A DNA stretch of 64,000 bases from Xiphophorus maculatus. Lineage: Eukaryota > Chordata > Actinopteri > Cyprinodontiformes > Poeciliidae. The translations under genes and the position numbers were made by a program. Positions within the stretch are counted from its first letter, which is position 1; each line of letters opens with the position of its first letter. Location: assembly GCF_002775205.1 (NCBI RefSeq), contig NC_036447.1:31557245-31621244 (forward strand). Reading direction: 5' to 3'. Under the pieces are notes generated by a model, which did not search any database, was not told where the DNA came from, and saw nothing but the letters and a program-made list of their open reading frames with translations. Shown in pieces: positions 7,477 through 43,700 of this stretch.

Positions 7477-7513
7477 TTACGTAACTCTGAAGGGAGGGAA
7501 TAAACCCTCCCTT
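7477..7513 (+). promoter_or_regulatory. D-box palindrome and TATA-like box in an inverted repeat (plus-strand P450)
   Basis: TTACGTAA (7477-7484) is a perfect D-box, the site for PAR-bZIP factors (DBP, TEF, HLF) and NFIL3. Fourteen bases downstream, AATAAA (7499-7504) sits between the exact 9-bp inverted arms AAGGGAGGG (7490-7498) and CCCTCCCTT (7505-7513). The start codon is 106 bp further on, so AATAAA could act as a TATA variant. Confidence 0.45.
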
Positions 7514-7619
7514 AACGGACTGCGGGCACCAATAGATGATTGCTGCCTGCAGTCGAATTCAAAGTACAATAAAAAACAACAACCTGAGCTCAACAGACTT
7601 TGGATCGGCCACATCAGTC

Positions 7620-10600
7620 ATGGACTTTTTTCCTTTCTTCTCCTCTGAAACATGGTTTCTCTTGATATCATTTATCTCCATATTTGTTTTGTAAGTATTT
7701 TTGTGATCAAATACGTTGTGCTCACTCTGAATATCAATACTCTTCAAAAGAAACGCATAAAAATGTTATTGCCATGAAAATAAGTTACACTTGCTGTACT
7801 GCATCCTGTCCAGGTATGGCCACTGGACATATGGAGTGTTTGAGAAGTTGGGAGTCAGGGGACCCAAGCCAACCATGTATTGGGGGACAGTTGGGAGGCA
7901 TAACCTGGTAATTATATAGTATGACATGAATAAATAAGGGGTGTTTTATGTTTTCACCATCTACATTTAAGTCTGATAGTAAGTAGAAATTACTAAAAAG
8001 ATGTTTTGTTTTTCAGGTGTACTACTTGGATGACAATGAATGTGCTAAAAAGTATGGAAGAGTATGGGGGTGGGTCCAAACTTTTTTTTTTATTTACAAC
8101 CACTAAATCTACTTTAGTATTGTCTCTGTATTTCCTAAACATTAATATTTGGGAAGTCAGAAATCTCCAAGGTTTTATGTCAAACTGCCCAGCAGTTAAT
8201 GATACATGTGTGATGCGTATTATTCTTCAGTTTGTATGAGCTCAGGAGGCCCATGCTGGCTGTGATGGATCCTGAAATGCTCAAAATCATCCTTGTTAAG
8301 GAGTGCTTCACATACTTTACCAACCGAAGAGTAAGGACACACAAGATAAACAGCGAAAGGAACAAGTGTTTGAACTCCCGTCTCTCTTCTCTAATATTAA
8401 AAGCAGTTTCAGGTTTTTGGTCTTATAGTTTTTCATTGAGCCTAAAATCACAAATAAACCTGTTTTATTTTTGTTAGAACTTCCGCCTGAATGGGGACCT
8501 CTATGATGCAGTGAACATTGCTGAAGATGATCAGTGGAGACGAATTCGTAACCAAGTTACTCCTTCATTCACCTCTGGGCATATAAAAGAGGTAGGACAG
8601 TTCAGGTCAGAGGTTTACATAAGCTCATAAAACTGACATCATATTAAATTTGGACTCTCAGTTATGGAATAAACACTTCTGGTTTAAAGTGAATAATTGT
8701 ATATTATGCAACTTTATCGTTTTTCAAAAGCAATCATTGGGCGTACAAATATAAACATAGTGCATTGTGGAGTTAGTGTCACTCACACATTTTCAAAAAC
8801 ATTTAAATACGCCTAAGCTCCTCCACGCTTTTTGAAGCCAACAAACATGGGCTTTGGGCTTTCTGGCCTTGCTTCTTGTTGGAAATAACACATGGAAGTT
8901 CCTCCAACTACCCCCCATAGATGAAAAAGAAAAAAAAAACTTCAGGATGATGAGGAACAATCCAATAACCACCCAGACTCAAGCCATTCATGAACTGAAA
9001 ACAATTGGGACACTAGTCTCACTGTCCACTATAAAGTGAGCTTTTCTGTGTAAAAAAGGCTCCTGGTAGCAGGGAAAGAAGCAACACATGCCAGTTTATT
9101 GTCCGGGAACCCCTCTGTACAACCAATGCTGATTGGTGGAGAACAGCGAACTCCTTAATTGAAAGCAAACATGCAGATTGATGCAGGCACAGATAGAATT
9201 TACTTTCTAAAAAAAATACAAAATACATGACTCAAAAACTTTTTTTTTTACATTTATCACATCAGCTGAAAAACATACAAATCTGTTAGAAGCTTGTGAT
9301 TTCCCCACGACTTTTAGATATTGATATCTGAAATATTTATATATATCCCTGTCCATGTATGAATTATAAAAAATAACTTACATTTATTTGGTGTTTTATC
9401 AGTGCACCCAAAAAAGAACAGCAAATGTTCAAATCATAAAGAGCCCAATATTTGTGTGATGTTCATGTCCATAATGTATGGAAACATAAACATCTGGTTG
9501 GAAATGTACGCATACAAACATCTTCACTCACTGTATGAATATTCTCTCCTCTTCTGCCTTTAGATGTTCAATATAATGCAGCATCATTCCCATAAGATGG
9601 TTGTTGGCTTACAATCTAAGGTGGAAAACAATAAAGTTATTATTATAAAAGAGTAAGTAACCCAGAGCAAATTATATGACAGAAAAGTTTCATCTCTATA
9701 TATATTTATTGTTTAGTGTACAATAAACATATGTATATATTTTTAAGAACAATTTAGCTTAAAACACAGGAGAACAACTGTAACAGTAGCTGCTTCCCCT
9801 GCGGGACATGATTTGGGGTTATTACTGCAAATTGGATGGATTGTTGTGAAGATAACTGAGACAAAACAGATAACTGGAATTTACCTTCAATAACCAAAAA
9901 TCTTGAAAGTACAATAAATAAGACAATATTGATGCATTTAATCATTAGATTATGTCAGACACTCTAATTTGGACATGGCTATAAGCCTTTACTTTAGATA
10001 TTTGGATTTTACATTACTGAAATATTTATTGATGATGTTCTGGTTATCATTTCTGTCACATTTCCATTATATTGAAATTTTTTTGCATTATGTTTTGTAT
10101 TTGAGGTGCCAAACTGCATGCAATCTCCTAGTGTTGAACACATTTACATACAGGCTGGTAACCTGAACCACGTGGCTGTATCTGGTGTGTATTCTAGCAT
10201 TTTTGGACCCTACAGCATGGATGTGATGGGGAGCTGTGTATTTAGTGTGGACCTGGACTCAATCAACGAGCCTTCAAATCCCTTCATTACACATGCTTCG
10301 AAGCTTTTTAGATTTCCTGTGCCTCTTTTCTTGTTTCAAGGTATTGCTGTTTGATTTCACCTTTTTGTCCATTAAAACTGCATTATCCAGCATTAAAACC
10401 GTGTGTTTCCCATGCTCCCTCAGGGTTTTTTCCTTTCTTTCTTCCTCTGCTGGAGCTCCTTGGAGTTTCACTATTCCCCAAGTCCTCTACTTCTTTCTTT
10501 AGAACAGTTTTGGAGAAAATAAGAGCAGAACGGAATGAGAGCGCAAGAAAGGTTTGTCAAAAACACACTGGTGCTAGTCCTGAATGTTCACAAATGTACC

Positions 10601-13600
10601 TGTAGATTGTTTAAAGTGGATATATTATGCTTTAAATCCTTCCTTTTCACATGTAAATCACTCACTTATGGTCTACATAAAGTAGGACTGCATTGCTTTG
10701 GTCTGAATTCCTCGTTATTGTAGCTCCACAGACTTTAACCAGACACTGTGAAGAGCCTCTGATGCAGGGTGGACAATATAAGGAATACACACTAGAGCCA
10801 AACGTTTTGACTTATTTACTTTGCAACTTCCGCATATTTCAACTTGGACCACAAAATCACTGGGATAAAAAAAATGGCGGATTCACAAAATTGATTAGCC
10901 AGAAGTCATGACCATGTTTAGCAGTTTTACAGCAAATGTGGTGACGTCATAGCCACAAAAATGTTATAGGCAATAGAGAAAAATGAAAAGACTGGAAGAT
11001 ATAACCTAAAAAGAATATAAAGATATCTACGCAGCACCGGAGAGATTAAATTACTTTTTTTTTTGTACTCCTAGGCACTTACAGCACTGAAAAAATTTAT
11101 TTAAGGGCTGAAAAGGTGGATTTTGTCTGATATGTCCATTTAATGAACTATGTTCAGTTAAAGCTACAGTATGTAACTTCTTTAAACTGTTACAATGTCA
11201 TGACTATATGCTATGAGACAGATCTGTGAAAAGATTGATCTCCTCCCCCTCCTGCATGAATTACTATTTCCATCTGTAGAAATGCACAACTCCCAGTCAA
11301 AAACAACCAATCAGAGCCAGGAGGAGGGTCTTAGTGTTTTTCATGTAAAGGCAGAAAAACAACTTACTGTGACAGGAAAACCGTTTATCTGCTATCATTG
11401 GTGGACATGCTAACTAGCCTTAACATTCACAACAGGCTCTGTTAACCGCAGAGTAGCAAAGAGAAAGGATGGTAGGGGGATGAGCAGAACAACATGAAGG
11501 GTGATTAGCAGCACTAAGAGCCTCCTCCTAGCTCTGATTAGTTATTTCTAGCTAGCTCTGGAATCACTGGTAGAAAGCAGAGGAGCTCAATTGTTTTTCA
11601 CAGATTGTCAACAAATATTTAAAAATAAATCCTGAAACTTTAAACTATTTATTTTGGTAACATAAAATTATGTGTTTGTACTTTCTGATCCATTTTTAGA
11701 ATATGGCAGATATTCTTCAGTATTTTATCAACTATCAAACAAAAAATCTCAAAAAAGTAATGGAGAATCAAGGTACAGTAATTATACAAGGATTTAATTA
11801 TACTCTTAGATACAAACTTGATTCTTACACAATATCATCACCAGTGTTAATGTACCTTTAACTGATTCCCCTCTTATCCATTCCAATAGGTCTTAATGAT
11901 CATGAGATCCTATCCCAAGTCACAATGCTTATCTTTGCTGGGTATGAAACTAGTGCCACCACTCTTAGTTTCTTAGCATACACATTGGCAAGGAATCCTG
12001 AAGTGATGAAACATCTGCAGCAGGAAATAGACTCAACCTTTCCAGAGAAGGTACAACCAACATTTCTGGCAAACCATCAAAGATTACAATGCATAAAAAA
12101 TAAATAAAAAATGCCATGTTTTAATTCCTCAGGGTCCCATCCAGTATGAAAGTCTGATGCAGATGGGGTACCTCAGCAGTGTGGTGGATGAGTGTTTGAG
12201 GTAACATGTTTTATTTTTGTGTTTTGTAAAGGAATTTAAGGTAAAAAACCTCTGTGTTTTTGCAGGCTCTACCCTCCAGCTGCACGTCTGGAGAGAATGA
12301 CTAAAGAAACTGTGAAGATCAAAGGAATCACAATCCCCAAGAACATGATTGTTATGATTCCAGTTTATGCTCTGCACCGTGACCCAGAGTTGTGGCCAGA
12401 TCCAGAGGAGTTCAAACCAGAGCGGTGAGCTGACCAGTGCTGAGATTTACACTGTAAACTCTTACTGAGTACTTTTAGTCACGTTAGACCTTGCTGCAGT
12501 GGTGTAGAAGGTTTTAAACCCCTTATTTGTTTCCATATCTTGTAGTAATTTTAAGAAGTCTTATTTAACAAAACAAAGGATTTTCAGTAATTTGGACTTT
12601 TTCAGCATTTTAATAGTTTTCTGTCAAATGATTTTACCTGAGCATGACAGAAAATTGTAAGGTAGATTCTTAAGATTATGAAAGTGGAGGAAACCAAGTA
12701 CCACATCAAGGCAATGTCATTGCTGACAGCATCCTTCAGTTAGTCTTCTGTTTGCCAAGATTTCATATAATATCCCATAGAAATTGACTTGATGGTGATT
12801 AAAATCAATTTTTTTGCCTGTCAAAACTTATCTTAGATTTTTCTTTTCAAAATTCAACAATCACTAAAATAAGTTTATTTAATTAGCCAGCTTGTATCAT
12901 CGATTGTGTTGTTTAACAAGCTGAATTAGACCAGAATTTTCAAGTATATTGACAGCTTGTTAATCTTTGAAATCTCCCACAATTAGTAAACAGTCATAAT
13001 CAATGCATATAAGAGATAAAAGATAATTAAAGTCAATACAAAAGTTTTTCAAAGTGATCTCGTTGTTTACACTGTCATGTGTTAGAGGCCTGGGGTTACT
13101 AGCGTTGAAAAGATTAGCAGTAAATAGTCATTTCCCAGCTTGATTAACAGTGACTTCGTGCTGGCGGAAAAAATAATAAAGCTCCCAGTAAATACTGTAG
13201 TGAAAATAAAAATGCCCTTGTCACAAATTGCTAGAAAGCAAACATCTGCACCTGCAATTTAAAACTTTTCTAAGTTCTCTCTTATCTATTGACAAGGCAC
13301 TGGACTGTAGGCCCAGTATTTATTAATTTAGAGTTTAATTGCTTAAAAATAAAAACAAACAAATCAAATTTCACAAATTCTCAAGGATCAACTTGGGAAT
13401 TTATGAAATTTGTTTAGGACAATAACAAAAAACACACAATCATACTTTTGAGTTTTATTTGATTTCAGATTTCAGATTTATTCAAGTCCCTGATGGAGAC
13501 ATGAATAAATCCCATACTTGATATTCACATCAAGTATGTGAATATAAAAAGACATAAAAAATAGGTAAGAAACAATAAAACATACCAAAAAAAAGACATC

Positions 13601-14150
13601 AAATATAAATCAACACATAATGAGAAGAGTCCAGCATTATATGTCATTATTGACCAACATTTGCCACCATGGGTTTGTACATTCCTAATGATAAAATGAT
13701 AAAACACACAGCCAAGCAGTTAAAAGTGTCACACTACTTTATGAATCATTCTCTTTTTGTGCTGTTTTTTAAGATTTAGTAAGGAGAACAAACAGAGCAT
13801 CAACCCGTACACTTACCTGCCATTTGGGATCGGACCACGGAACTGTCTGGGGATGCGATTTGCTCTGGTAATGATCAAACTGGCCTTGGTGAAAGTTTTG
13901 CAGAACTACAGCTTCCTGGTCTGTGACGAAACTGAGGTATTATTACAAAAGTAGTTTTCTTTCAAAAATATACAGTAAGAAATGTGAAAGTACATACTAC
14001 AGAAAAATAGAAAAGGGCCTACTTGACTTCTTTTCTTTATTTCCCAAGATCCCTCTGAGGATGCACCCTGAGGGCCTGATGGGACCTCTGGAGCCAATCA
14101 AACTAAAGCTACAGAAACGCTCCCTCAGCTCAGCAGACGTGGACAACTGA
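7620..14150 (+). CDS. cyp3a: Cytochrome P450 family 3 paralogue, 14 exons, 505 aa
   Basis: Same enzyme family as the divergent neighbour. Coding exons: 7620-7690, 7814-7907, 8017-8069, 8231-8330, 8478-8591, 9564-9652, 10198-10340, 10424-10551, 11700-11772, 11890-12050, 12133-12200, 12266-12424, 13774-13936, 14049-14150. All introns are GT-AG and the frame is continuous. Visible are the N-terminal anchor ([18 protein letters not shown]), I-helix AGYET (305-309), ExxR (E362-R365, ECLR), KPERF and the haem loop [10 protein letters not shown] with Cys442. Differences from the neighbour: the usual 227-bp exon 11 is split by a 65-bp intron (12201-12265), exon 7 is 6 bp shorter, exon 9 is 6 bp longer, and the C-terminal tail is longer. 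It appears functional. The subfamily (CYP3A versus another fish CYP3) is not settled. Confidence 0.93.
10610..11143. mobile_element. Non-autonomous DNA transposon (TIR element) in P450 intron
   Basis: Its ends are inverted matches: TTAAAGTGGATATAT on the left and, reverse-complemented, TTAAATGGACATATC on the right. The interior has no coding sequence. It lies in the intron between coding exons 8 and 9 of the plus-strand P450. Confidence 0.5.
11158..11670. mobile_element. Palindromic dispersed repeat, copy 1
   Basis: It shares long stretches with 43915-44330, including the CCAATCAGAG-CAGGAGGAGG core and the GTGAAAAGATTGATCTCCTC region. Each copy looks roughly symmetric, with CTCCTCC-type blocks answered by GGAGGAGG-type blocks. 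It is non-coding and probably a non-autonomous DNA transposon. It lies next to another such element in the same intron. Confidence 0.55.
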
Positions 14151-15163: not shown

Positions 15164-15830
15164 TCCATCCATCCATCCATCCATCTTCTTCCGCTTATCC
15201 AAGGTCGGGTCGCGGGGGTAGCAGCTTCAGAAGGGAGGCCCAGACTTCCCTCTCCCCAGCCACTTCTTCTAGCTCTTCCGGGGGAATCCCGAGGCGTTCC
15301 CAGGCCAGCCGAGAGACATAGTCTCTCCAGCGTGTCCTGGGTCTTCCCCGGGGCCTCCTCCCGGTGGGACGTGCCCGGAACACCTCACCAGGGAGGCGTC
15401 CAGGAGGCATCCTGACCAGATGCCCAAGCCACCTCAACTGGCTCCTCTCGATGTGAAGGAGCAGTGGCTCTACTCTGAGTCCCTCCCGGATGACTGAGCT
15501 TCTCACCCTATCTCTAAGGGAGAGCCCAGCCACCCTACGGAGGAAACCCATTTCGGCCGCTTGTATCTGCGATCTCGTTCTTTCGGTCATGACCCAAAGC
15601 TCATGACCATAGATGAGGGTGGGAACGTAGATCGACCGGTAAATCGAGAGCTTCGCTTTTTGGCTCAGCTCTCTCTTCACCACGACGGACCGGTACAGCG
15701 CCCGCTTGACAGCAGACGCTGCGCCAATCCGCCTGTCGATCTCCCGCTCCCTTCTTCCCCCATTCGTGAACAAGATCCCGAGATACTTAAACTCCTCCAC
15801 TTGGGGCAGGACACCCCCCCTGACCCCCTG
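15164..15830 (-). mobile_element. Rex3-like (RTE clade) LINE 3' end, 5'-truncated, with TSD
   Basis: The minus strand holds an open frame of 201 codons (15195-15800) equal to the C-terminal end of an RTE-type reverse transcriptase, with motifs FKYLGILFTNGGR, YGHELWVMTER and [12 protein letters not shown]. The 3' end runs into the GATG-type tandem repeat (ATCC on the plus strand, 15164-15183), as described for Rex3 elements. An 11-bp target-site duplication, ATGCTAATCCT, occurs at 15154-15164 and 15831-15841. The rest of the element is missing, so it cannot move by itself. Confidence 0.85.
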
Positions 15831-15841
15831 ATGCTAATCCT

Positions 15842-17177: not shown

Positions 17178-19829
17178 TTACTGATAAAACGAAGCACGAA
17201 AATCTCTCTCCCAGTTTTTATCTTCTTGCTCTTTTCTCTTGATCTCATCCTTCTTCTGTCCTCTCAGTCCCTTTTTTTCTTTCATTTGCTGTTGGTTTTT
17301 TACGGCATCAGCATCACCAGCTTTGAAGTGAGTCACTTTAGGTCTTTTTATTGGTCCAAATCCCAGACCTTTCTGGTCTCTTTTTAATACGGTGGATACA
17401 GGCTGCTTAGCGCCGTCTGCCTCTGGGCCCAGACCTGTACCCGGTTTCCAGCCGCAGCGAACCATCATCCTGTAGCTGTTGCTGGACGGGGGGAGGCAGT
17501 AGTAAGGCGTGGGCTGAGGACGGCGCAGACTGAACTGATGCAGAGTAGAGGAAAGATGCGACGAGTGGCTGCCTCCGTACTCACAACGGCACACATCGCA
17601 CCACTGAGGCTGGAGCAAACTGAAAACATTAAGAAAACATGTCAGAGCAGACATGCCAAAAATATCTGACTGTCTTAACTCAGTGAATACAGCACCATGG
17701 ATTTGGTTGTAAATTCTCGTGAAATAAGAGTGAATTCTTCTTTTAATACAATGTGCATACAATATAGAAATTTGGATGGTTTTTTTAGTTTGTATTCTTG
17801 TATTTTGACAAATGTGCAACAGAGCGGGCAGTTTACGAATAGCTGTATCTTAAAAAACAGATGTAGTGTTATTACTATGGACCATTTGCTTTAAGATTTT
17901 TTAAAATATAGTTTAGTATAGTTGATATCGGACACTAGACATGCATAAATTAAGTCACATTTTTAGGCTTTAAATATTGCTTCAAATATTTGATCTCCAA
18001 AACTTCAAAGCTGCCCAGGAACTTTATCATGTTACATCCAGAAAGCTGCACCCAGCTGCTTTGGGGAAGGACATGGACACATGGTGGTCAAGTTGTTTTT
18101 TTCTACAAACAGCAGTAAAAAAAAAGTGTGCACACATTTGTGTGATGCAGGTCTGCAGTTGTCCCATATTCTTTGTTCTATTGCAATATGAAGGTTTGAA
18201 CAAGTTTAATACTTGGGATATTGTTTTATAACAGCCCTGCTTTAAACTTTTTCTTCATGACCTGTCTGAAGTGCATCTAGTTTTCATTAAGTTCATACAG
18301 CTCGACTCCATTCACTAATTAAATTGCATTTAGATGTATATAACTGATTCAAAAGAAATAGCCACAATTAGAAATATCTTAAATTAAAAAATAATCTCTA
18401 GCTTTTCACCAGGAGTAGGTGAGGGCAAATCCAAATATTACCTCATAATTTAAGTTAATGTAAAAAAATGAAATTCAAATAAAATGAATTGAAGTCTGTG
18501 GATATAGAATAGAATAGAATAGAAGTACTTTATTCATCCCAGCAGGGAAATTACTTCGCAGTTACAGCATAGAGACAAGACACAATAACAACTACCACTG
18601 AGTAGTAGTTGTCTATAAATTGTAAAAATATGAAATGCTGTTAATATAAAAAGCAACTTAAGAGCTTAGGATGTATTATAATAAAGTGAAAGTGGTATGA
18701 GCCACTATATCTTAGGTAAAAAGTCCAAACAAAGAAGTGTTTTAGCTTCACATATGCTTGTTTTGTATCCACATTATGTTCATATTAACTTACACAAATA
18801 CTTTGATCTGTTACTTCTGCATCCAGTAAAAGAGTTTATTTAGATATTGGAAAAAACAAACTTACTTTTGATAAGCAACATCACCTTTTCACAAAACACA
18901 TTGAGATGAATGCATTTTCCGTTTTTACATGGGTATCTTAGTTTTTGTACGCCGACTGTGAGTTATTTGTGCCAATGGAGTGATTTCTTCAGTTGTAATT
19001 ACATGTTCTAACCTGTAATGAGAATGTGTCTCTCTCTCTGGGCTTTTTCCAAAACTTAATAACTCTTTCAGGACGTCATCATGGCCAGCTGTGAAGAAAG
19101 GGGGTGAGTAAAGATATTCAGAAAAAATATACAAACCAAATTATTATGAACACTGACTGGTTAGCACAGACAAACGAATATACCTTCTGATGCCAGATCT
19201 TGAGCATCCTTGCCTCTTGTATCAACCACTCCGACCCAGGCTGCACCGTGCATCAGCAGCAGTCTCACTGCAGCTTTCTGTCCTGACCAGCTGGCACACA
19301 TCACAGCTGTCCACAGATAGGAGTCCTACAGGACAAAACGCAAACTGATAAATTACATTAAATCAAGCTGAAAAGAAACAACACTTCTGGGTGTTGCTAC
19401 CTGGAAATTAATGTCCACTCCTTTTGAGATCAGCTCCTTGAGTCCTGGAATGTCCCCCTGATGAGCGCAGCGCAGCAGCCTGAGCCCCTGCAGCTCCTGG
19501 GCTCTCTCTGATCTCTCAGACTGTCTTCTTTGGTTGTCTTCTCTTTCACGTCTTACCTCCATTTGGACCACAGACTCGGGTCGAACCTGCTGCACTCGTC
19601 CAGTCCTGATTCTCCTCCTCATTCTTCTATCAGAGCCCCTGTCACGATTGTTCCCGTGGGTTGCTCTCAGTGACTGGTCCTTCTGGGTTTTGTCATCTTT
19701 AATTAAGTCTTCATAGAACCTCCTGACTTCTTCTCCACTTATTTTGGAACTTTTGTTGGTGGACTTTTGTTCCGTTCCGAAACTAAAAGCATCATGGTCG
19801 ATGGCAGGAATAAATCCTAAAGCAGCCAT
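17178..19829 (-). CDS. gpank1: G-patch domain and ankyrin repeat protein, 362 aa
   Basis: Four coding exons: 19401-19829, 19184-19325, 19013-19088, 17178-17619; GT-AG introns with agreeing phases. Residues 1-110 are basic and low in order, including an FYEDLIKDD stretch like human GPANK1. Residues about 112-205 hold two ankyrin-type helical repeats (LRLLRCAHQGDIPGLKELIS, then WTAVMCASWSGQKAAVRLLL). Around 222-243 lies a CxxC...HxxxxxH finger-like cluster. Residues 262-305 are the G-patch (GWKPGTGLGPEADG, then LKRDQKGLGF), and the end is a charged helix (WERDFRASFYQ). G-patch proteins usually bind RNA or activate DEAH helicases; the role of GPANK1 itself is poorly known. ATG at 19829 (MAALGF) is chosen; an upstream in-frame TTG codon is not a likely start. 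Confidence 0.92.
18505..18620. repeat. LINE/SINE 3'-tail fragment with pentanucleotide run
   Basis: Tandem AATAG units are followed by ACTTTATTCATCCCAGCAGG and GAAATT. This resembles the common fish non-LTR tail in which a TTTATTGATCCC-like motif precedes GGGAAATT. It lies in the last gpank1 intron. Confidence 0.5.
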
Positions 19830-20343
19830 TCCAAGCGTCAAACTTCTGATTTTCCCGGTTAAAAGTTCACTGCTGCTTCAACAGTTACCTTATTAAGCAA
19901 TGCCAGTTACCTGTTAACAGCATAGCAATTTGCAGTCCGTGCTGCAAATTGCAACAACAAATTGAAGGCTAAGCTGAACCCTAAACTATCTTTAGCCACG
20001 AACACAACATAAACTAGCCGCAAGCCGTGGTAAAGGCGTTAACTTTAAATTAAGAGATACGGTAAGTGATTAGATAATAATCCTTCACATTACCAGGACA
20101 GCTTAAATACATACATTAGACAGAAACTCGGCATCATAAGCAAAAAGAGCAGAAAATGTTCGTGATCTTTGAAGCTAACGTTGTTTTTCCGGGAGCACTA
20201 ACCGTTCCGAGAACTAATTTGAGTGCTGCCACCTACCGGTTTGGGTGTTAAAATGTCTACTGAACTGTGATTCTGTTTTCTGGTTGAAATTCAGGACAAT
20301 TTCAACCAATTAGAAAATTTCAACCAATTAGAAAATTACTAAT
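19830..20343. promoter_or_regulatory. gpank1 5' flank
   Basis: Contains the gpank1 5' UTR and presumably its promoter. It holds scattered CpGs, for example around 20160-20240. No TATA box or further exon is supported by eye. Confidence 0.35.
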
Positions 20344-23997: not shown

Positions 23998-26900
23998 TTA
24001 GATCATAGGGTGATATTTACTGATGTGTCTGTTTCTGTCCCCAGTTTGTGTAAAGGTTTGCCCACAGTGAGGGCAGGAAAAGGGTCTCTCTCCCGTGTGC
24101 GTTCTCATATGAACGTTCAGCTTGTCTTTGCTAATAAAGCGTTTGCTACAGCAGGTGCATGCGTACGGTTTATCCCCGGTGTGGTAGCGCTGGTGCATCT
24201 TCAGCTCTGTCAGGCGGCCGTACGTCCTGCCGCACTCTGGACACTCATAGCTGGGCCGCTCATCCATGTGCTGCCTGCTGTGGAGACGCAAGCCGCTGGA
24301 GGAGCTGAAGCTCTTGCTGCACTGCAGGCACTTGAAGGGTTTCTCCCCGGTGTGAATGAAGACGTGCAGCTTGAGACTGGCGGCCGAAGGGAAACCGTTA
24401 CCGCAGATGGAGCACAGGTGGGGCCTCTCGCCGGTATGGATACTTATGTGCCGCTCCAGCTTGTTCTTGTTCAGGAAGGTTTTGCCACAAAAGGGACAGG
24501 TCTGTGGCTGCTCTCCCTCGTGAGAGATCATGTGCTCAGTCAGTTCCACCAAAGTTGAGTAAGCCAGGTCACAGCGTGTGCATGAATAAGGCCTCTCTTT
24601 CTTAAACTTCCTGTGTTTGAGGCAGTGCTGCTCCAATTCCTCCTCCTGCTCGAAGGTCTCAATGCAGCAACTGCACTGGTACGGCCTTTCCAGAGTGTGC
24701 GTCCGAAGGTGATATTTGAAAGCTGTAAGCTTTAGAAAGACGTCGTTGCAGTGTGGACATCTGGATTCTCGTCTGTCGTGGACCTGTACGTGTCTCTTAT
24801 AATGAGACAGCTTCATGAAGTGTTTCTGACACAATGAACAGTAATACTGATCATGCTGGTGACTCTCCTCGTGTTTCTTCAGTGCATACTCCACTTTGAA
24901 CTTCTTCCCACAGGTACCACAAGGAAAAGACTTCCGATGAACCTGCATGTGGGTCTCGAGTTCCTCCGCACTGCCGAACCTCTCGTTGCATTTGGGACAC
25001 GTCCCACTGTTTTCCTTCACATGATCTTCGAGGTGTTTGTTGAGGTCTTCAGGGAAATAAAAGATTTGCTTGCAGTCAGGGCATGTGTAAAAGTCAGACT
25101 TTGCAGCTTTACGATGAGACATGATGTGCCTCTTCAAATGATACGAGCGGCCAAATTCTTTGCCGCAATCACCACAGATGAGGCTTCGAGGGCTGGGCTC
25201 AACCGCTTTGTGTAGTTTAAGATGCTTTTCTAGTGCACCCTTCTCTTTGAACTGCTTATTACATGCCAGGCAAAAAAGATCAATGTGAGCATGAGTCCTT
25301 TTGTGTATTTTTAGTTCTAGCCAGGTGGTGAAACTCTTCCCGCAGTGAGGGCAGATGTACTGCCCTAGACCATGCTGAATTCTCACATGACGTGTCATGT
25401 GATAGGACTGGCTGAACGTCTTGTTGCAGACGGGGCAACTGAAAGGTTTTTCCTTTGTGTGGGTCCTCATGTGTCTAGCAAGTTTGTTTGGGCCTTTGAA
25501 GCGCCTCCCAACACAAATGGGACAAGAATTGTCTCTAGTTTTCTTTAGTACAACTTTTTCAGAGTTAGTATCTGAGTTGACACCCTTAGTCAGGCAATGG
25601 CTCTCAGCAGCTTCACAAGCTTCTGCAGAAATATCGGATAATTCAGTTTCAGTTTTCACTTCAATGCATTGAGGTTGTTGTTGACTGCTTTCTCCCTCTG
25701 TTTGGGAAGACAGGTCTTTCTTGTGTGACTTCACATGATTACGAAGATCTTCATTGTTTAAGAAGATTTCGTTACAGTCAGGGCAGTAAAGGATTTGTGG
25801 CTTGTGCGTCTTCTTGTGTTTAAATAACTCTGCCAGGCTTTCCAGGCTTATCCCACAGGTGGGGCAAATATATGGGCCCGCAGCATGCTGGTTCCTCATG
25901 TGTCTGGTCATGTGGTAAGACTGACTGAATGTGAGATCGCAGAGAAGACATTTGAATGGTTTCTCACCAGTGTGTGTCCTCATGTGTCTGTTGAGCTTGT
26001 CCACTGTTTTGAAATACTTGTTGATGCAGATGGAACAGCAAAGGTCTTTTCCCTTAGTTGAAGGAGGGAAGAAGTCTTCATCTTTACTGTCATCATTGTC
26101 TTCGGCACAGCAACTTGACTGGTTGCTTTTTTCATCTTCCATCATCTGAGGTGATGAGGTGATAGCATTATCTAGTTCATCACAAGCCTGGGTTCTACCT
26201 TCACTACCACTATAACACATCATATCATTGCTGTGAGAGTTCTGATTTTTGATTTTGTCAGATTTTCTTTGGGCTTCAGTCACAAGTAGTTCTGACATGA
26301 CCTTTTTCTCACCAAGCCGGGGTCTTCCTCGTTTGCGCTTTTGTTGATGCTCAGTCACAAGATGTTCTAATGTAACCTTTTTCTCCCCAAGTCGAGGCCT
26401 TCCTCTTTTGAGCTTCTGTTGAGGTTCCGCCACAGGTGCCTTAAATTTAACCTTTTCTTCCCCGATCCGAGGTCTTCCTCTTTTGCGCTTAATTTGAACA
26501 GGAGTCTCTAAATCCTCTCCAATATCCACACTCACTTCATCAAAATCCAACTCCTGAGAACCACTTGAAGAAGGTTCTGCCTCTTTAGCAATAGTCAGAG
26601 CCTTGGCCAAGGTTAGACGGTCTTTCCTCATCAGAAGCTTCTCTCTGAGCTGCAGATTGTTTGTTTTCTCAATCAGCTGATCTAGTAGAAGTTTGTTCTT
26701 GTACCTTCCATACTGACAAAGCCTCAGCAGATTTTTTAGGGCTGTAACAAACTCATCTACAGTCTCTCCAGGCATCTGAACCCTTTGGTGGAACTTAAGG
26801 CGGTGCGCCTGAGTGGAATAATCAGAGCTAAAATGAGCAGTGAGTTCTGAAATAGCAATAGCATACGTAGCCTGATTCCTGATCAGAGTTGAATAGACGT

Positions 26901-27168
26901 TCTGTCCCTCTTGGCCCAGGAAACTTCGTAAAAGCACCAGCTTACTGGAGTCCTCCATATCTCTATCACCAAATGCTTTTTCACTGAATGCTTGAGCGTA
27001 GTGTTCAAAAGCTTTAAGCCATTTTGGCCAGGGCATGGTGAGTTCTCCTGGGACCAGAGAGAAAGGTGGCGGTGGGGGCAGGATTAAGAACAAAGGTTCT
27101 GGGCGTGGCTCTGAAGAAACTTCTTCCTTCACATCCGCCAAAGCTAACTCTGCAGTAATGTCACACAT
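23998..27168 (-). CDS. Gag-like/AT-hook/22-finger C2H2 protein, 1056 aa, single exon
   Basis: One uninterrupted frame. Residues about 45-197 resemble a Ty3/gypsy-type Gag capsid region: MPWPKWLKAFEHYAQA, LVLLRSFLGQEGQNVYSTL, HFSSDYSTQAHRLKFHQR, MPGETVDEFVTALKNLLRLC, DQLIEKTNNLQLREKLL, then LTLAKALTIAKEAE. Residues about 227-295 carry three AT-hooks (KRKRGRPRIGEEKV, KLKRGRPRLGEKKV, KRKRGRPRLGEKKV), which bind the minor groove of AT-rich DNA. An acidic serine-rich stretch (about 340-370) leads into 22 C2H2 fingers (about 377-1053), several joined by TGEKP-type linkers. The Gag zinc knuckle, protease and polymerase are absent. The inferred role is a nuclear DNA-binding regulator able to self-associate through the capsid-like part. 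ATG at 27168 begins MCDITAELAL. I do not recognise a named orthologue. A family with the same architecture may exist in other fish. Confidence 0.9.
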   Translation of the reverse strand: MCDITAELALADVKEEVSSEPRPEPLFLILPPPPPFSLVPGELTMPWPKWLKAFEHYAQAFSEKAFGDRDMEDSSKLVLLRSFLGQEGQNVYSTLIRNQATYAIAISELTAHFSSDYSTQAHRLKFHQRVQMPGETVDEFVTALKNLLRLCQYGRYKNKLLLDQLIEKTNNLQLREKLLMRKDRLTLAKALTIAKEAEPSSSGSQELDFDEVSVDIGEDLETPVQIKRKRGRPRIGEEKVKFKAPVAEPQQKLKRGRPRLGEKKVTLEHLVTEHQQKRKRGRPRLGEKKVMSELLVTEAQRKSDKIKNQNSHSNDMMCYSGSEGRTQACDELDNAITSSPQMMEDEKSNQSSCCAEDNDDSKDEDFFPPSTKGKDLCCSICINKYFKTVDKLNRHMRTHTGEKPFKCLLCDLTFSQSYHMTRHMRNQHAAGPYICPTCGISLESLAELFKHKKTHKPQILYCPDCNEIFLNNEDLRNHVKSHKKDLSSQTEGESSQQQPQCIEVKTETELSDISAEACEAAESHCLTKGVNSDTNSEKVVLKKTRDNSCPICVGRRFKGPNKLARHMRTHTKEKPFSCPVCNKTFSQSYHMTRHVRIQHGLGQYICPHCGKSFTTWLELKIHKRTHAHIDLFCLACNKQFKEKGALEKHLKLHKAVEPSPRSLICGDCGKEFGRSYHLKRHIMSHRKAAKSDFYTCPDCKQIFYFPEDLNKHLEDHVKENSGTCPKCNERFGSAEELETHMQVHRKSFPCGTCGKKFKVEYALKKHEESHQHDQYYCSLCQKHFMKLSHYKRHVQVHDRRESRCPHCNDVFLKLTAFKYHLRTHTLERPYQCSCCIETFEQEEELEQHCLKHRKFKKERPYSCTRCDLAYSTLVELTEHMISHEGEQPQTCPFCGKTFLNKNKLERHISIHTGERPHLCSICGNGFPSAASLKLHVFIHTGEKPFKCLQCSKSFSSSSGLRLHSRQHMDERPSYECPECGRTYGRLTELKMHQRYHTGDKPYACTCCSKRFISKDKLNVHMRTHTGERPFSCPHCGQTFTQTGDRNRHISKYHPMI

Positions 27169-27281
27169 TATGGGTTTTGCATGAAGGAGCTGATTGAAGC
27201 TCCTATCTAAACTTTGATGAATGAAGACGTCACCTTCCTTAGTCTGTCTTCAAACTTCTGCTGTTTCACCAGTCTTCTGAA
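27169..27281 (-). other. Probable 5' UTR portion with splice acceptor
   Basis: On the minus strand a pyrimidine-rich TTTATTTTACAG precedes 27281, with no in-frame upstream ATG extension. This suggests a non-coding first exon further upstream, joined here. It is predicted from sequence only. Confidence 0.45.
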
Positions 27282-29890: not shown

Positions 29891-30409
29891 ACATCGCATG
29901 CCGAAGAGATTATGAGGTCAACTGAATCAGGTAAAGTAAATACAATTAAAACATGAAGGACAGGCTGCCATGGAGACCAGAGCTAACATTTGGATTAAAC
30001 AAGGACCTATCAAAATGTATTTATTTCTCTAAAAAAAAAGACAATATTCGCTTCGATTTTGATTAGAGATTAACAGTTATCACGTATTGTTTTGACTAAC
30101 GTCAATAATGGCATTCATTTTAAAACTAACTTCATCTATTGCCATCTTTAAAAGCCACATTTCTTTAAACGTGATTCAGATGGAGCACAAAACGATGGTT
30201 CCTCCAGGTTTAAGTCATATCCTATAATTCTTGCGAGTAGATCAGTTCCATGTTTTAAACAGTTGTAAAATGAATGAAGCAAGCACACCCAATATACCCC
30301 TCCTACATCCCTTTTCCCCTTTATAAAGGCTGTCTTCTATCTCCTACAGGACCGACAGCACATAACAAAGGTGCAAATATATAATGAAAAAATGAGCAGG
30401 ACAAAACGT

Positions 30410-30745
30410 TGACGAGACGGAGCACAGGAAAACTCACAACACCACAAAGAGGGGGTAAAGGGATGCCACAACTCACGACGTGTTCAGACCTCCACACACA
30501 CACACTTGGATCGCTTCAGCTCCGAGCGGCTGCCGTTAGTTAGAGTTCGTAGCTGTTCCTGCGCTGCAGATTTTAATCAGTCGACAGCAATACTGCGGTG
30601 TTAGGTCGATAAGCGGAGCTGGAAAGCAGCTAAATTAGAGGCAAACGTAAAAACAAGCCCGTTATTATCCCAATACTGTTTCCGGGGACCAAGCAAGCTC
30701 TCAGAACAGCTTCCTCTCACATGTCAGCGCCCTACAGCGACGCCT
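30410..30745 (-). promoter_or_regulatory. CpG-rich candidate promoter of the zinc-finger gene
   Basis: CpG is much denser here than in the surrounding AT-rich DNA. The stretch lies upstream of the minus-strand zinc-finger gene and its predicted splice acceptor at 27281. A CA run sits at about 30494-30506. There is no transcript evidence. Confidence 0.4.
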
Positions 30746-30867
30746 GGTGTCAAGGAGCCACAGGACAGCAAACAGTAAACTGAAAAAAGTTATTAAAAAA
30801 CCTTCAGATAAATTCAGGTCTTGTGACAATGGCGTCAGTGCATTATTACATATATGATATAGACATG

Positions 30868-30901
30868 TAATAATAATAATAATAAAATAATAATAATACA
30901 T
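30868..30901. repeat. TAA trinucleotide microsatellite
   Basis: About ten TAA units with one interruption. Confidence 0.9.
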
Positions 30902-33689
30902 TATTTAATATTCCTTTTAAACTGAAAAACTAGATTTTTTGTCTATCTGTATTCAAAATTTCTGTATCCAAAATTCAAAATGACTAGAAATATAAATATA
31001 GTAAGCTAAATAGAAAGGGAATTTTTTAAATTGTAATCGTTTTATACCTCAGAGTAAAAAAAGAGTACAGAATTTTGTTACAAAATACCTTTTGTAAGGT
31101 ATTCTTCTAACAAAAAAAAAAAAATCAAAAACAAACATAAAAGTCTTTTTTTTAAGTCATATTTTTACATGATTTCAAAATGTCTCCCAGATTGTTAAAG
31201 GCAGTGATGTCTTGGGGCGAAGCATATTCTAATTAAGGTGTAGATTATTACACCAGAATAAATGCCCAGAAAAAAAGTGCATCTTTGCTTCTGATTTTCA
31301 ATTTTTGTCATTTAAATATGAAGAGAGAAACAAATTTCTACTAATTTGTTTCTCAACACAAAAATTAAATTTAAAGATTTTGATTTTAAAATATCTAGAA
31401 TACTGTGTTTTTGTTTACTGGTTTTTGATGTGAAAGTCTAATCACCAAAACATACACCCACCCAGTGTCAAGGTTTCGCAGTGAAAAGTTGTGCAAAATT
31501 CAACCTATGATTTGAACAAATATATTCCATGGGACCAATGCAGAGGGTGTACCTGGAATGATGATAGAGCTAAGTAAACAAAGTCAGAGGCTGACCCAAA
31601 TTTATCTTGCCATCACACATTTTGTAAATGATTATAAATGAGGTTAAAAATAATCTCTAAAACTCATTGCTAGTAAACTGCAGCATATTCCATGCTTAAG
31701 CCAAGGGAGGAAATCCCATTTCATTATTAGAGGGGACTCTGAACAGGGACATTTTTTAAGAGCAAATTTAGGGGGTCAGCAGTGAAATATACAGTGAAAT
31801 ATAACGTAAAATGTGGTTTAAAAAGTTTTTAATGTGTTCAAGCTGCAAGACCAAAAATGTCTAGTAATGCTCAAACATGTGTTTTTCTCAGTAAGCAAAC
31901 TATAGAGACCCATAAAGATCAAACTAAAATTTAAATGCTTATGAGCTTGGTTCAGTGGCACAGAACCTCTGGTACACCTTTATAAAAAAATTAAGGCTGT
32001 AAATAAAAAGAAGTTGTAATGAGTAACTCCACTTGATAAAATTCCTCATAAATATTAATTTTGTTGCAGTGGCTCTCATGCAAGTTATGTGTTATTTAAA
32101 TCATAACTTAAGTTGCTTTACGCTTAAATCTTTTTTGGTTTTGCCATGTCCTCGATGGCTGAGAATCTATGAGTAGAAATAATGAAGATCTGGGAAGTAT
32201 AATTTAAACTTAATGCTCAAAACACCACAGTTTGTATAGAAAAATATTCAGATTTGTGTGTGTGGTTTTAGAGACTCTATGTTGAAGATGGTAAGAAATA
32301 AAAGCATACATTTTTGTTTTTCTCTCTCTCTCTGCTCTCAGCTCCCACTCACTGAGCTGTCAGCTAGTTGTAGTACTTAGTCCCTCCCGCTTCAAACTCT
32401 TCTCATAAAAGAGCTAAATATAATTGAGATATTTGCTACAAAAAAGACAAAAACAAAAAGGTTTAAGTCTATCAAAGCAATGCAGCCAGTTTCTAGACAA
32501 TTCTGAACCACCCTGAGCTTTCTGCCCATGGCTTAAGCACCTACAGATCTTTGCAAAAGTTGTCACTAATTGTTGAGGACACCACCTCCACTCTCCCGGC
32601 TTTCAGGCTCCCATCCTTCACCGACTTCCACCACCAGTGTCGGGTCCCGGGGTATGACATTCCTAACCTACATCGGGAATGCTCATCCGAGCTTATTGCA
32701 ATTCACAGCTCAATGTTGTCAGCCGGGGCCCGAGTGCCAAATAACTTTAAATTCATGCATGTCAATAAACCTTTTTAATCGCTGTTCTTTTTTCTGTCTG
32801 AGTCTCTCCAGATTGAAAAAGCTTTTACCAATTTTAACAAGTTAGAATGTGTGACATCTGCCAGAATAATGTCGTCTCTGAGTGCTCTCCCTTTGTTTGC
32901 ACTTATACTCAGGGGTTTAATCAGTGTCAATAGGCCGTCATGCTAATCAGTAATTTAAATGTCAGGTGTTTTCCTGTCTATGTTTAGGGGCAAAGTTGCT
33001 GAAATTAATTTGTGAGGGATTAACTCTGCCTGAGCAGATTAGATCCTTGTTACCCACTTCATGTTTGATCAGTGGACAAACTTCTCCTCCTGTTCCAAGT
33101 CAGTCCAGCTCAGACACAGCAGAAAACCATGTACATTGTTTCCATAATCAGTTTTATTGGATAGTAGGATTTCTTATTATCTGCCTCTCTGTTGCATAAC
33201 TGAGTGCCATTTGGAAGTAAAAATGCAGGCATATTTAAGTATTATGCATTTCTCTTGAATATACTAAAAGAGATTGCAAATGTTTGAAAAATTTAAGATT
33301 TGGCTTCAGTTGCACAGAAAAATATCTAATTTACAGATACAATCTGACAATCACATCTACTTATTGGCATCAATGCCATACTGCCATGAGTTGAAGGATT
33401 CTGTTTTCATCTTGTGGTTTTGTTCTATTCCACCCACAGTCTAATTTGCTCTTTGGTATTAGTGTGTGTGTGTGCATGGTTATTTTTTTGTGTTGCACTC
33501 ATTGGCACTTAGATGTTTAGTCATGGTCAGTTTAGTTATGGCCTATACCTGATCCTTGTGTGTTATGTCATCTCTTCATCTCCAGACAATGCTCCATCAA
33601 AGCTCTTCCATATTTATTTAATCAGTTTCACTTACTCCCATTGCAGCAGAACCCCTGATTCATTGATAGCCAGTTTTCCATTCCTCTTT
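30902..33689. other. Spacer, nothing recognised
   Basis: AT-rich non-coding sequence. The open frames near 32551-32845 have no family resemblance I can name and no splice context. Confidence 0.4.
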
Positions 33690-37782: not shown

Positions 37783-40700
37783 TCAAACGAAGGAAGAAAA
37801 CCCGGTCACAGGAGTGCGTGACCCCGGCGGGTTGGCGCTGGGGTTGATGTGTGTGTGCGCGGGCTGCCCTGTGGGTGTGTAAGCTCCCCCTGTGCTGTGC
37901 TGCGTCACCACCGTCTGATAGTAGGGCTCCGTGTCAGCGGTGGCACACTCCTCGTAGGCAAAAGGACTCCCTGTCCCTTTGAGGCCCTTGGGCTGCCGCT
38001 TCCAGGAGTTGTAGTAGGTGGGGTCGCTCATGTAGTGGTTGACAAAGGAGTGCTTAGGCTGTTCATCCTCGTAGTCGCTGTCCGTTAACTGCACACAAAC
38101 AACAGGATGCTTTTCAACTTACCAGTTATTACAGGAACAAGAGTAAGACAGGAAAACTAAATTACTGGTACAGAAAAAATACTATTCTTTTATATTTTCT
38201 TGCTATTTTAAAACATATTTGAATCTCTATAAAAAGCAGGCTTCCAAATAAGTTGAGCGGATCATTGGCTCAAAGAAAAAGTGAAGAATAAACTCCCTCT
38301 CAACACGTCTGAGCTGCTGCCCTCTGGAGGGCGCTAGAGGCTAATTAAAACAAAGGCAAACCAACTCAGAAAACTTTTGTCCAAATAATGGTTACAAGCT
38401 GCTGTTAAAATCTAAAAATGAAGAAGAAACTTTTGTCCCTTCAAAGTCATAAACATGTTGATCTCAATCATCTCAGTCTGTCTCTTCAAACAGACTTTCA
38501 ACATAAAGCATGAAGTCTCTGTTTAACTACTTTTTATTACATTACCACAACAAACTTCATTGTATTATACAGAGATTCTGTGTGACAAACCAACACAAAG
38601 TTGTGCTTAATTTTGAAGTTAATATAAAGAATTAAAAGTGGGATCACTCTTTCATCTAACATCTGTAGATAACATCCAGGACAACTATCTGAGTTTAAAA
38701 CGTATAAAAAAGATAAAAAAATAAATAAAATAAAATAAAATAAAACAACAAAAAGTTACATAAGTGGTTTATTTATACAACTAGTGGCAATTCACAACAT
38801 GTCACCTCAATCCAATCATACATACATTCTAATTGACCCTTGTCACCAAGCAATGCAGTCAACTTGAGCCTATATTTCAAACTGGTAAAGTTTTCTATCA
38901 TATCTTTACATCCACAGCTCAGGTGAATTATCGTTTACAGAATGATTGTTCATTCTGCAATTCTGGCCTTCATGCAAGATGGATAGAATAAAGTCAGGAT
39001 TGAAAGAAAGAGACTTAGACTTAGACGTAGACTGACTTTATTGTCATTTTGCATGCACAGGGTGTATACAGAATGAAATTTCGTTGCATACGGCTCAGGA
39101 CAGTGTTTTGAGGTTCCAATGTTGTGAGGTTACTCCAGAATAAAATAAAATACAGTATAAAATATGAATATAAATATGAATATAAAATATAAAGTGCAGG
39201 ACTGACAGTAAAATGGAGTTACTTAGCTCTGTACATTTGCAAGGTATGAAGTGGAGACCAGAATTTTGAGTGCAGTCCAGTTAAGAGTTCAGCAGTCTGA
39301 TGGCAAGTGGGAAAAAGCTATTTTGGAACCTGGTGGACCTGCACCGGATGCTGCGGAACCTCTTTCCAGAGGGCAGCAGGGCGAACAGTCCATGGTGGGG
39401 GTGTGAGGGGTCACTGATGATGTTTCGGCCTCGGGACACGCAGCGCTGGGATGAAATGTCCTGAATGGAGGGAAGGGGGGCCCCAATGATCCTCTCTGCT
39501 GTCCGCACCACTCTCCTCACGTTCTTCCAGTCGGAGGCGCTGCAGCCTCCACACCACACAGAGAGGCAGCTGGTCAGAATGATCTCTATGGTGCATCTGT
39601 AGAACGTCTTCAGGATGGGCGGGGGCAGGTGTGCTCTTCTCATCCTCCGCAGGAAATACAAGCGCTTCTGTGCCCTCTTGACCAGAGACGCGGTGTTCAC
39701 AGTCCAGGTGAAGTCGTTTGTGATGTGCACCCCCAAGAATTTGGTGCTGCTGACCACCTCCACAGCCGAGCTGTTGATGAGCATTGGAGCGTGGCTGGGC
39801 CGGTTCTTCCTGAAGTTGACGATCATCTACTTCGTCTTGTCAACGTTCAGGATCAGGCTGTTGTCTCTGCACCAGTCCACCAGCTGCTCCACCTCCTCTC
39901 TGTAGTCCAGGTCGTTGTCGTCTCTGATGAGGCCCACCACCGTTGTGTCGTCCGCGAACTTCACGATGTGGTTGGTGGAGAACCTGGGGGCGCAGTCGTG
40001 TGTCATCAGAGTGAACAGCAGAGGGCTCAGGACTCAGCCCTGAGAGGAGCCTGTGCTGAGGGTGATGACATCGGAGGTGTGTTGTCCGATCCGGACTGAC
40101 TGAGGTCTGTCGGTGAGGAAGTCTAGCAGCCAGTTTCACAGGGGGGTGCTGAAGCCCAGGTGTCCCAGTTTTTCTGCCAGATGCTGTGGGATGATTGTGT
40201 TGAACGCTGAGCTGAAGTCCAGGAACAACATCCGCACATGAGTGTTCTTCTCTTCCAGGTGAGCCAGGCTCAGGTGTAGGGTGGAGGAGATGGCGTCCTC
40301 AGTGGAGTGGTTTCGGCGGTAGGCAAACTGGAACGGGTCGAATGTGGAGGGGAGTCTGGAGACGATGTGTTCTTTTACCAGCCTTTCAAAGCACTTCATC
40401 ATGATGGGAGTCAGTGCCACAGGCCGGTAATCGTTGAAAGAGGTGACTTGAGGTTTCTTTGGCACCGGAATGATGGAGGCAGTTTTGAGACAGGCTGGCA
40501 CTGTGGCTTGGTCCAGTGAGGTGTTAAAAATGTCTGTTAGGACACCAGCCAGCTGACCTGCGCATTCCCTGAACACCCGCCCAGGTATGTTGTCGGGGCC
40601 TGGGGCCTTCCGTGGGTTGACTCTTTTCAGAGTCTTCAACACATCGGCTGTGTCCAGGCAGAGTGCCTCCTCTTCCTGGTGGGGAACAGTTTTCTTTGCC

Positions 40701-43700
40701 GGGGTACTGCTCAGTGCCTCGAACCTCCCAAAGAAGTTATTCAGTCCATTTAGAAAGTCAGCATCAATTTCACCCACTGGGGGGAGGATGGATTGTAACA
40801 GCAGAAGTTAAGATTGAGGTTTGGCACAAGGAGTGTTGGTCAACTTACCTGAAGTAGTAATTCAAAACTAATTACTGATTACTTCCCCAAGAAAATAATC
40901 TAGTTAATACTTTACTGATTATTTATTTTAAAAGTATTTAGTTACTTTAATTACTTTATTTAGTTACTTGTTTTTGTTTGGCTTGTAACTTCATATACAT
41001 TTCACCACAAAAAATGTCATGAAATGCAAGTCTGATTTGAAGAATTTTTTCTGCACATTCCATGAAGAAAATCATGTCTCTCTACTGTTAAACTATATTT
41101 CTTCCTAACCATACAAAGCACAATTATTTTTGTGTTTGCATTCTTTCATTCAAAATAATGATAATATAATATAATTTAAATCGATGTCTCCTGACTGTCC
41201 TCTGAATTAGTACCATTTCCATCTTTTCACCTGTTTAGCAGGAGAGGGGCTGTCAGAGGTTTGCCCGGTGGAATCAATGTGGTAGCTGCATTGGTCAAGT
41301 CAGTCAGAGGGTCTGGGGGTTTCTGCAGCTTACTGTTCAAATCTGAAGTAGAGTTTTCACTAGAGATAAGTTTTCTTCCCACACAGAGCGAACAGCGCAT
41401 GCTAATGTTTTCATCACTGAGCTGAGCTAATGACGGCGCTTCCAAGCATTAAACACTACATTGTTCTGCTGCACTCTGTACTGTTTGCTGCTGATTTACG
41501 CTTTGGTCTGTTACCATGACCAGTGACGACGCAAAGACATGATTGTCATGACAGGATCACAAACAAAATCACAGTCTGCTTGCGTGGAGTAACAGTAATT
41601 TGATGACTTTTTTTTAAAAACTGTAGTTCCTTATTTTACTTGAAAAAAATAACTGGATTACATTAATATGTTACTGGCCACAAGTCATATTGGGACACAG
41701 CAAACAATGTGGGAGAATGTTCTCTAGTCACATGAGACCAAACTTGGAGTTCTGCACCAACATGGTCTGTGAGGCCACTCAGTGAGGAGGAAATTATGAC
41801 TTCAAAAGAAACATTAAAAAACCATATTGCAGTTTGAAAATGCACACAAGAACAGTAACTTCCATTTTTGGAGTCATGTCCTGATCTGGACATAATGAGC
41901 ATCATTACATTTGGATGGAAACATTTAAAGACATCAGTCCGGAAGATAAAAATTGGATTTCCAAATTAACAATGGCGCAAAGCATTCAGACAAAGTGGTT
42001 TAGCTTCAGAAACAAAATGGTGCATGTGTGAATGTAAATGTATGTACATGAATGTAAATGAATGTATTCTGTGGATGTAAACTTCTGGTTTCAACTGTAC
42101 ATCTCAAGCAAAATAAGTGAAAGTTTATGGCATGTCAAGGTTCCAGGCATGTGACTATTTTTGTAAGACACAAATTCACTAGGTACTAAAGTGTGAGACC
42201 TGTGTAATATGATACATACAGTATTTGTAAAAGATGCAATATAATCAGTACATACACACTATTTTCATTATGCTGTATTTGTCTAATATAGTAATGTTTA
42301 GATTTCTTTGTTATTCTTTGTAGTCCTTTTTATCTGGAATTTCATTTTATTATATACAACGATCAGAGACCTATTCTAATCTATTCTATTCTATTCTATA
42401 AAACCAAAGTTACAGCACAGCGATGTAATACCACAACAAATATCTTAAAAAGCCTTCTTAGAGCATCTATATCCACTGAGATTAACCTGGCTCTTTTCAG
42501 CTTCCTCTGATGGACTAAAAGCTTTGTACGAGTCAGAGCCTGTTAGCAGAGCTTTATGTTGTTTTGCAGGCTAACCCTTTGAGGACCATAATAAGTTAGA
42601 TCAGTCATGAATCTATGTTTCTCTTTTTAGCTTTTTTGACAGGAGACATGTTACACAAACTGAAGACTGAAAATACTTGTCACTTTTTTTGACTGTACAC
42701 CTCAGACAATATCAGACAGATTTTCTTCTTCCAAATGTAACATGCTTCTGAATTGCAAGGATCAAATCAATCACAATTGTTTGGTGACATGTGACAGTGG
42801 TTCCAGAATTTTCAGTTAATTTGTGTTTTGGTCACTTTGAAAGTATGAACACAAATGACAAGTGAATTTATGGCAGATACATTAACAGTTGATGTAAGCC
42901 AGAAAAAAAAAGCAAGAAAAGGAAGGAAGGATGAAAAGAAAGTAGAAAAATAGATGGACAAATGGTTTGACAAATTCAGGGTAAAGGGATGGATAGATAA
43001 ATGAATTTAGAGAACAGAATTTGGAATAAAGTCGGAAAAACCAAATATTTTCCCAAACTGAAAAAATAAATGCCCTGCTTTTCAAGACTTGTTAGAATAT
43101 TTTATATCAAATTATGGATTCAGCTTCATGAACTCTGTCCAGAACTGAAACTGATTGAGGCACAATGTGAAGGATTAATCTTTCTCACTATACAGGTATT
43201 AGTTTGATCCTTTCCTAACAACAGTAGAAACATAAACTCTGAGGCATTAACCCACACAACCTGTAGATAAAACTAGTGATCACACATGGAGGTGGAATTC
43301 TACACTGACCAACTGATCTTCATAAGTCAGACACACGGGTGTAAAATTGTGACACAAACTGAGATGAAGTTACACCAAACAGAAACAGGAGGAACTTAAA
43401 CTGAGGCAAACATTGGGAAGCCACATCCATAAAGACAGACTAGAAAACACAGATACCTCTGATTCAGAGACCTCAGTGGGTTTCTCTGTGAGTGTGGTGC
43501 TTTCAGTGAGCACGGCTCCATTATAGTTGTTACAGATATCTTCATCAGAATAGTGGAGTCCACCTGGACTGGGCCTGGGTGGAGATCTGGACACAAATTT
43601 GGATGATGAAACTGTTACTTTTCGTCCAATGAGGATTAGTGCTGTGTAATCCTCTGGGAGAGCTAACCTGGTCCCATTCTTTTTGAGGAAGGAGTTCTTG

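Follow-up and report, generated by a model that had tools for sequence, protein, structure and literature searches.

A probable domesticated Ty3/gypsy Gag capsid region joined in frame to an AT-hook and C2H2 zinc-finger protein in Xiphophorus maculatus

Capsid lobes self-associate in Arc, PNMA2 and SCAN, the last of which is a dimerisation domain, and the capsids of Arc/dArc and PNMA form particles; BTB, which is not known to be related to Gag, opens a comparable layout in ZBTB24, where it is followed by an AT-hook and C2H2 zinc fingers. The SCAN zinc-finger proteins (ZSCAN/ZKSCAN) combine an N-terminal Ty3/gypsy-type Gag capsid domain with C-terminal C2H2 fingers (PMC3406341, PMC3424704), SCAN being described as the C-terminal capsid portion of a Gmr1-like element, which in the Anolis lizard is already joined to fingers (PMC3406341). 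A study that surveyed the metaviral capsid genes of mammals built no profile for SCAN, and its capsid profiles missed the SCAN proteins (PMC11011659). Elsewhere, BTB is called an oligomerisation domain and the AT-hook of PATZ is thought to confer an alternative DNA-binding specificity (PMC9468604), and ray-finned fish have C2H2 proteins with N-terminal domains of their own, the KRAB-like and FiNZ proteins (PMC11603059). Here we describe a gene from a 64,000-nucleotide stretch of the Xiphophorus maculatus genome (contig NC_036447.1, positions 31,557,245 to 31,621,244; hereafter the window, numbered from its first letter) which, in our assessment, is probably a domesticated host gene: a Ty3/gypsy Gag capsid region joined in frame to an AT-hook/C2H2 protein, found once in the genome and kept by protein-level selection.

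The gene lies in a single long open reading frame, extending from stop to stop over positions 23998-27249 of the minus strand; the plus strand of this interval carries many stops. By the base composition of the coding sequence itself about 56 stops would be expected and none is present, an outcome whose probability is about 1e-25. Inspection of the frame and its motifs confirmed the intact 1056-codon exon, with a Gag-like part, three AT-hooks and 22 fingers, that an earlier note on this DNA had reported, and added the strand, which that note had not named (Table 1).

When residues 1-206 were searched against the animal's own genome (704 Mb in 101 contigs), 40 matches were obtained, consisting of the window itself and 39 other places. 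The four best of the latter have E values of 8.9e-24, 3.2e-23, 1.6e-22 and 1.5e-17 (41, 43, 37 and 36% identity, respectively) and the weakest of the 39 has an E value of 2.0e-4; within a small set of loci, tblastn matched residues 30-205 to the Gag of locus L011 at E 1.5e-25. As a single sequence, the protein matches the Pfam profiles PNMA at E 0.005 and Retrotrans_gag at E 0.006, both below the curated cut-offs (against PNMA, whose cut-off is 25 bits, the Gag part by itself scores 16.7 and 17.1), and it reaches the Arc capsid in the PDB at an E value of only 0.26. A profile built from 12 aligned Gags (the window and 11 element rows) ranks dArc1, dArc1 and dArc2 capsid chains first to third in the PDB, with E values of 5e-5, 3e-4 and 0.013, followed from the fourth rank onward by unrelated chains (E 0.08). 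Structure prediction without an alignment yielded models of low confidence (mean predicted local distance difference test, pLDDT, of 42 for residues 1-206 and 53 for residues 44-202), and fold searches with these low-confidence models gave no significant match; relatives sought in viral contigs and in bacterial and archaeal genomes were not found there.

Sequence was taken at all 39 other Gag places, covering 8.3-8.6 kb around 20 of them (L009-L028), 1.5-2 kb downstream of 13 (L036-L048) and 2 kb downstream of six (L050-L055). A pol match is present in 35 of the 39 stretches (19/20, 12/13 and 4/6 in the three sets), the others being L026, L045 (only a short stretch past Gag matched), L053 and L054; the filters applied to pol matches may have discarded those beginning inside Gag. 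The pol match of L009 is on the opposite strand, and a neighbouring frame at this locus carries CCHC and protease motifs. Several of the related elements have long uninterrupted frames. Six element frames were searched with Pfam. Each of the four long frames (L011, L014, L018 and L027) has reverse transcriptase (RT), RNase H and integrase, one after the other in this order; of the six, three have a CCHC knuckle (L010, L011 and L018) and four have Retrotrans_gag (L010, L011, L014 and L027), the score exceeding the curated cut-off in L027 only. Taken together, the own-genome element matches, the Pfam domains of the elements and the match of the 12-Gag profile to Arc capsids indicate that the N-terminal part of the protein, aligned over residues 30-205, is a Ty3/gypsy-type Gag. 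A Gag tree was built from the window and 18 of the 20 loci with flanking sequence, L022 and L024 being excluded because of stops and each entry being represented by its best matching piece alone. In this tree the window is weakly placed (79/88) and has a long end branch (1.41 changes per column); the nearest sampled element Gag is about 42% identical to that of the window.

Neither the linker/AT-hook part (a 183-residue query) nor the gag plus AT-hook DNA has a match in the animal's own genome other than itself. Apart from the Gag part, the window gave no pol match better than E 0.38, and no LTR-like (long terminal repeat) direct repeats of at least 40 nt were found within 22-31.5 kb. In the fetched stretches, which cover the downstream side only for 19 loci, no Gag among these 39 has a finger-array match beside it; L016 and L021 do have isolated C2H2-like motifs, located in short frames. 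The finger array itself has 259 matches in the genome (65 of 1358 candidates scored), the next-best among those scored being 43% identical over residues 422-664 of 680. This one genome displays several of the features by which a domesticated Ty3/gypsy Gag gene is recognised, namely Gag homology, no adjoining pol match or LTR-like repeats within the limits just given, and no dispersed copies found. As a separate observation, many C2H2 finger matches lie between about 6.2 and 8.2 Mb of contig C13 and between about 24.0 and 24.7 Mb of contig C14, and Gag matches are located inside or near the C13 finger cluster (e.g. L018 at 7.73 Mb).

Constraint on the protein was assessed both against the elements and within the gene. 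The window keeps 15 of the 17 columns that are invariant among element Gag rows (columns with letters in at least nine of the 11 rows, which include near-duplicates and represent fewer than 11 lineages), as well as 8 of 13 further columns conserved at 80% or more among these rows. Between the duplicated finger blocks (fingers 1-2 and 5-6), the proportion of synonymous differences (pS) is 0.87, a saturated value, and that of nonsynonymous differences (pN) is 0.23 over 52 codons; extending the comparison to 105 codons gives a pS of 0.87 and a pN of 0.31. The 13-codon cores of the AT-hook units have a pN of 0.05-0.12 and a pS of 0.42-0.70, the latter based on just 9-10 synonymous sites, and the contrast is weaker over the whole 25-codon units (pN 0.11-0.27, pS 0.44-0.54). 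Judged by this divergence, the internal AT-hook and finger repeats are old and have been kept at the protein level. The lack of a pol match or LTR-like repeats beside the gene, the failure to find a second copy in this genome, the kept Gag columns and the constraint on the internal repeats argue that the locus is a host gene under protein-level constraint and not a dead transposon. Two earlier proposals are thereby borne out: selection on the frame, by the internal-repeat divergence, the single copy and the retained element-invariant Gag columns; and a Ty3/gypsy-type Gag origin, by the retrotransposon matches in the same genome and the profile match to Arc capsids.

The fingers, all of them intact, have a C-x2-C-x12-H spacing in 20 of 22 cases and C-x2-C-x13-H in fingers 1 and 5; a gap of 66 residues separates fingers 4 and 5. 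Among the six C-terminal fingers, four (18, 19, 21 and 22) are preceded by a TG(E/D)(K/R)P linker, and this region matches the fingers of ZFP568, CTCF and ZBTB24 by sequence in the PDB. Psi-K-x-E motifs are found at residues 13 and 504, in addition to two located inside fingers at residues 757 and 855; they would suit SUMO-linked repression, though such motifs are common.

From this organisation a mechanism can be proposed in which the capsid coding region of a Ty3/gypsy Gag was fused in frame with a host C2H2 zinc-finger protein carrying AT-hooks. The capsid part would self-associate into a dimer or a higher assembly, the AT-hooks would bind the minor groove of AT-rich DNA, and sequence specificity would come from the fingers, mainly those near the C-terminus that follow consensus linkers, so that several copies might act jointly on chromatin to regulate transcription, repression being the likelier outcome. 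By analogy with SCAN or BTB proteins, the simplest reading is that the product is likely an oligomerising nuclear DNA-binding regulator. A more far-reaching version, which we regard as an unlikely extension, would have a two-lobed capsid captured independently in the fish lineage, assembling beyond dimers into multivalent chromatin complexes that bridge distant AT-rich sites; such a gene would parallel SCAN by convergence and in a more complete form.

A different account, to our minds rather improbable, would make the gene a host-defence factor, whose Gag part still enters the particles formed by the Gags of related retrotransposons and disrupts their assembly in an Fv1- or RTL8-like manner, while the fingers and AT-hooks silence element DNA. 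The four nearest Gags share only 36-43% identity with that of the window, which makes co-assembly into a common particle doubtful; moreover, anti-transposon finger families are fast-evolving and multi-copy, unlike this single gene with its constrained fingers. What speaks for a defence role is that the same genome harbours many related elements, several of them with the long uninterrupted frames described above, that most element-invariant Gag positions are retained, and that there are precedents in the captured-Gag restriction known for Fv1 (PMC3424704) and in the antagonism of PEG10 particles by RTL8 (PMC11684626).

The Gag part could instead be an inert, tolerated N-terminal extension of a gene that works through its AT-hooks and fingers alone, an idea to which we give a small chance. 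Two points count in its favour: the constraint measured within the gene is confined to the AT-hooks and fingers, and the end branch of the window Gag is long. Against inertness, 15 of the 17 residues that are invariant in the elements persist, as does an open frame of 206 codons, although the nearest sampled Gag is so distant. Capture from an unsampled element lineage may also explain this retention, which might in principle stem from selection at a time when the Gag part still belonged to an element. Finally, a relic copy of a retrotransposon that had itself acquired a finger array would account for the Gag homology, and is rejected as extremely improbable given the intact 1056-codon frame, the lack of adjoining LTR-like repeats or a pol match, the failure to find a second DNA-level copy in the genome and the finding of a finger-array match at none of the other 39 Gags within the stretches fetched.

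The domesticated-gene reading can be set beside the known systems, of which the SCAN zinc-finger proteins and the BTB/AT-hook/zinc-finger proteins such as PATZ1 are, by layout, the closest working analogies. Gmr1-like elements have integrase before RT; the order in the four related long frames described here, which need not be that of the source element, is not that of Gmr1. SCAN-finger genes, moreover, form a large family, unlike the window gene, of which no second copy was found and which has AT-hooks added. Arc/dArc and PNMA are likewise domesticated Ty3/gypsy capsids, the former matched by the 12-Gag profile (dArc1 and dArc2) and the latter providing the best, if sub-threshold, single-sequence Pfam match of the Gag part; to our knowledge they lack a C2H2 array or AT-hooks, and their capsids form particles. 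SCAN (PF02023) gave no Pfam match at E 1 with the full protein, with residues 1-225 or with the 12 aligned Gags, no SCAN chain appeared in the PDB sequence searches at E 10, and membership of the SCAN family is rejected on the lack of a profile match. The fish architecture comparable to SCAN with AT-hooks added, as envisaged in the earlier note, is thus supported without a SCAN match, and of the profile relationships considered there Gag appears in Pfam at sub-threshold level only (PNMA and Retrotrans_gag). Neither BTB nor KRAB has a Pfam match at E 1 in the window protein. SCAN is described as comprising the C-terminal capsid portion only (PMC3406341), unlike the window match, which spans residues 30-205. 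PATZ1 and ZBTB24 share with the window gene the plan of an N-terminal oligomerisation domain, an AT-hook and C2H2 fingers (for BTB and the PATZ AT-hook, PMC9468604); the fish KRAB-like and FiNZ proteins (PMC11603059) differ from it in their N-terminal domain, which here is Gag.

Upstream of its start codon, within the predicted 5' part of the coding exon, the frame is closed by an in-frame stop. A four-codon upstream frame (27168-27182, minus strand), read from the sequence, ends in a stop that overlaps the main start codon (TAATG), an arrangement from which reinitiation could be possible. In two overlapping 500-base windows of the candidate promoter region, the observed/expected CpG ratio is 0.79 and 0.95 and the G+C content is modest (0.47 and 0.38). 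Along with the predicted splice acceptor and the candidate polyadenylation signal (Table 1), this region speaks for a host gene.

Table 1. Features of the Gag/AT-hook/zinc-finger gene, with positions in the window
Feature	Position	Strand	Basis or remark
Coding sequence	23998..27168	-	ATG at 27168, stop at 23998-24000; 1056 aa; single exon
5' untranslated part of coding exon	27169..27281	-	Predicted splice acceptor TTTTACAG, exon start 27281; prediction only
CpG-rich stretch, candidate promoter and non-coding first exon	30251..31000	- (assumed)	Prediction only
Possible splice donor	30476	- (assumed)	Prediction only
Candidate polyadenylation signal AATAAA	23813..23818	-	About 180 nt past the stop; prediction only
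Gag capsid-derived region, aa 30-205	26554..27081	-	tblastn, own-genome search, Arc-capsid profile match
Three tandem 75-nt units, one AT-hook each	26276..26500	-	RGRP at aa 230, 255 and 280
22 C2H2 fingers, aa 378-1053	24010..26037	-	Motif inspection, Pfam zf-C2H2
Fingers 1-2, first copy of duplicated finger block	25885..26037	-	Compared with fingers 5-6
Fingers 5-6, second copy of duplicated block	25372..25524	-	Compared with fingers 1-2
C-terminal fingers 17-22	24010..24498	-	Linkers and PDB sequence matches

Elsewhere in the window, fibronectin-III exons (37783-56296, minus strand; fn3 confirmed by Pfam in two exons) lie upstream of the gene and include a C-terminal piece ending in GFSSFV that has no Pfam match; read by eye, this piece and the exons presumably belong to a sidekick gene. 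Downstream lies a gene with a Pfam-confirmed G-patch (17178-19877, minus strand), which we take to resemble gpank1, and P450 exons are located at 1557-13954 on both strands, apparently as two oppositely oriented genes that we assume to be CYP3A-like (Pfam P450 confirmed in one exon per strand). LINE-like (long interspersed nuclear element) reverse transcriptase fragments were recognised by eye at 39281-40807 and 15195-15833, both on the minus strand; Pfam RVT_1 was confirmed at 40136-40807 and gave no match at 15195-15833.

In summary, the sequence of the gene looks as if the route by which mammals built SCAN zinc-finger regulators had been taken independently in a fish. Among the open-licence literature matches listed, judged by titles and the beginnings of abstracts, no paper was recognised as describing it, and the novelty of this combination of capsid, AT-hooks and fingers is provisional. 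Such a gene would suggest that retrotransposon capsids have been joined to zinc fingers on more than one occasion in vertebrate evolution, with different element lineages as their source; repeated joining of this kind would support the view of capsid self-association as an oligomerisation module that DNA-binding proteins can adopt ready-made.
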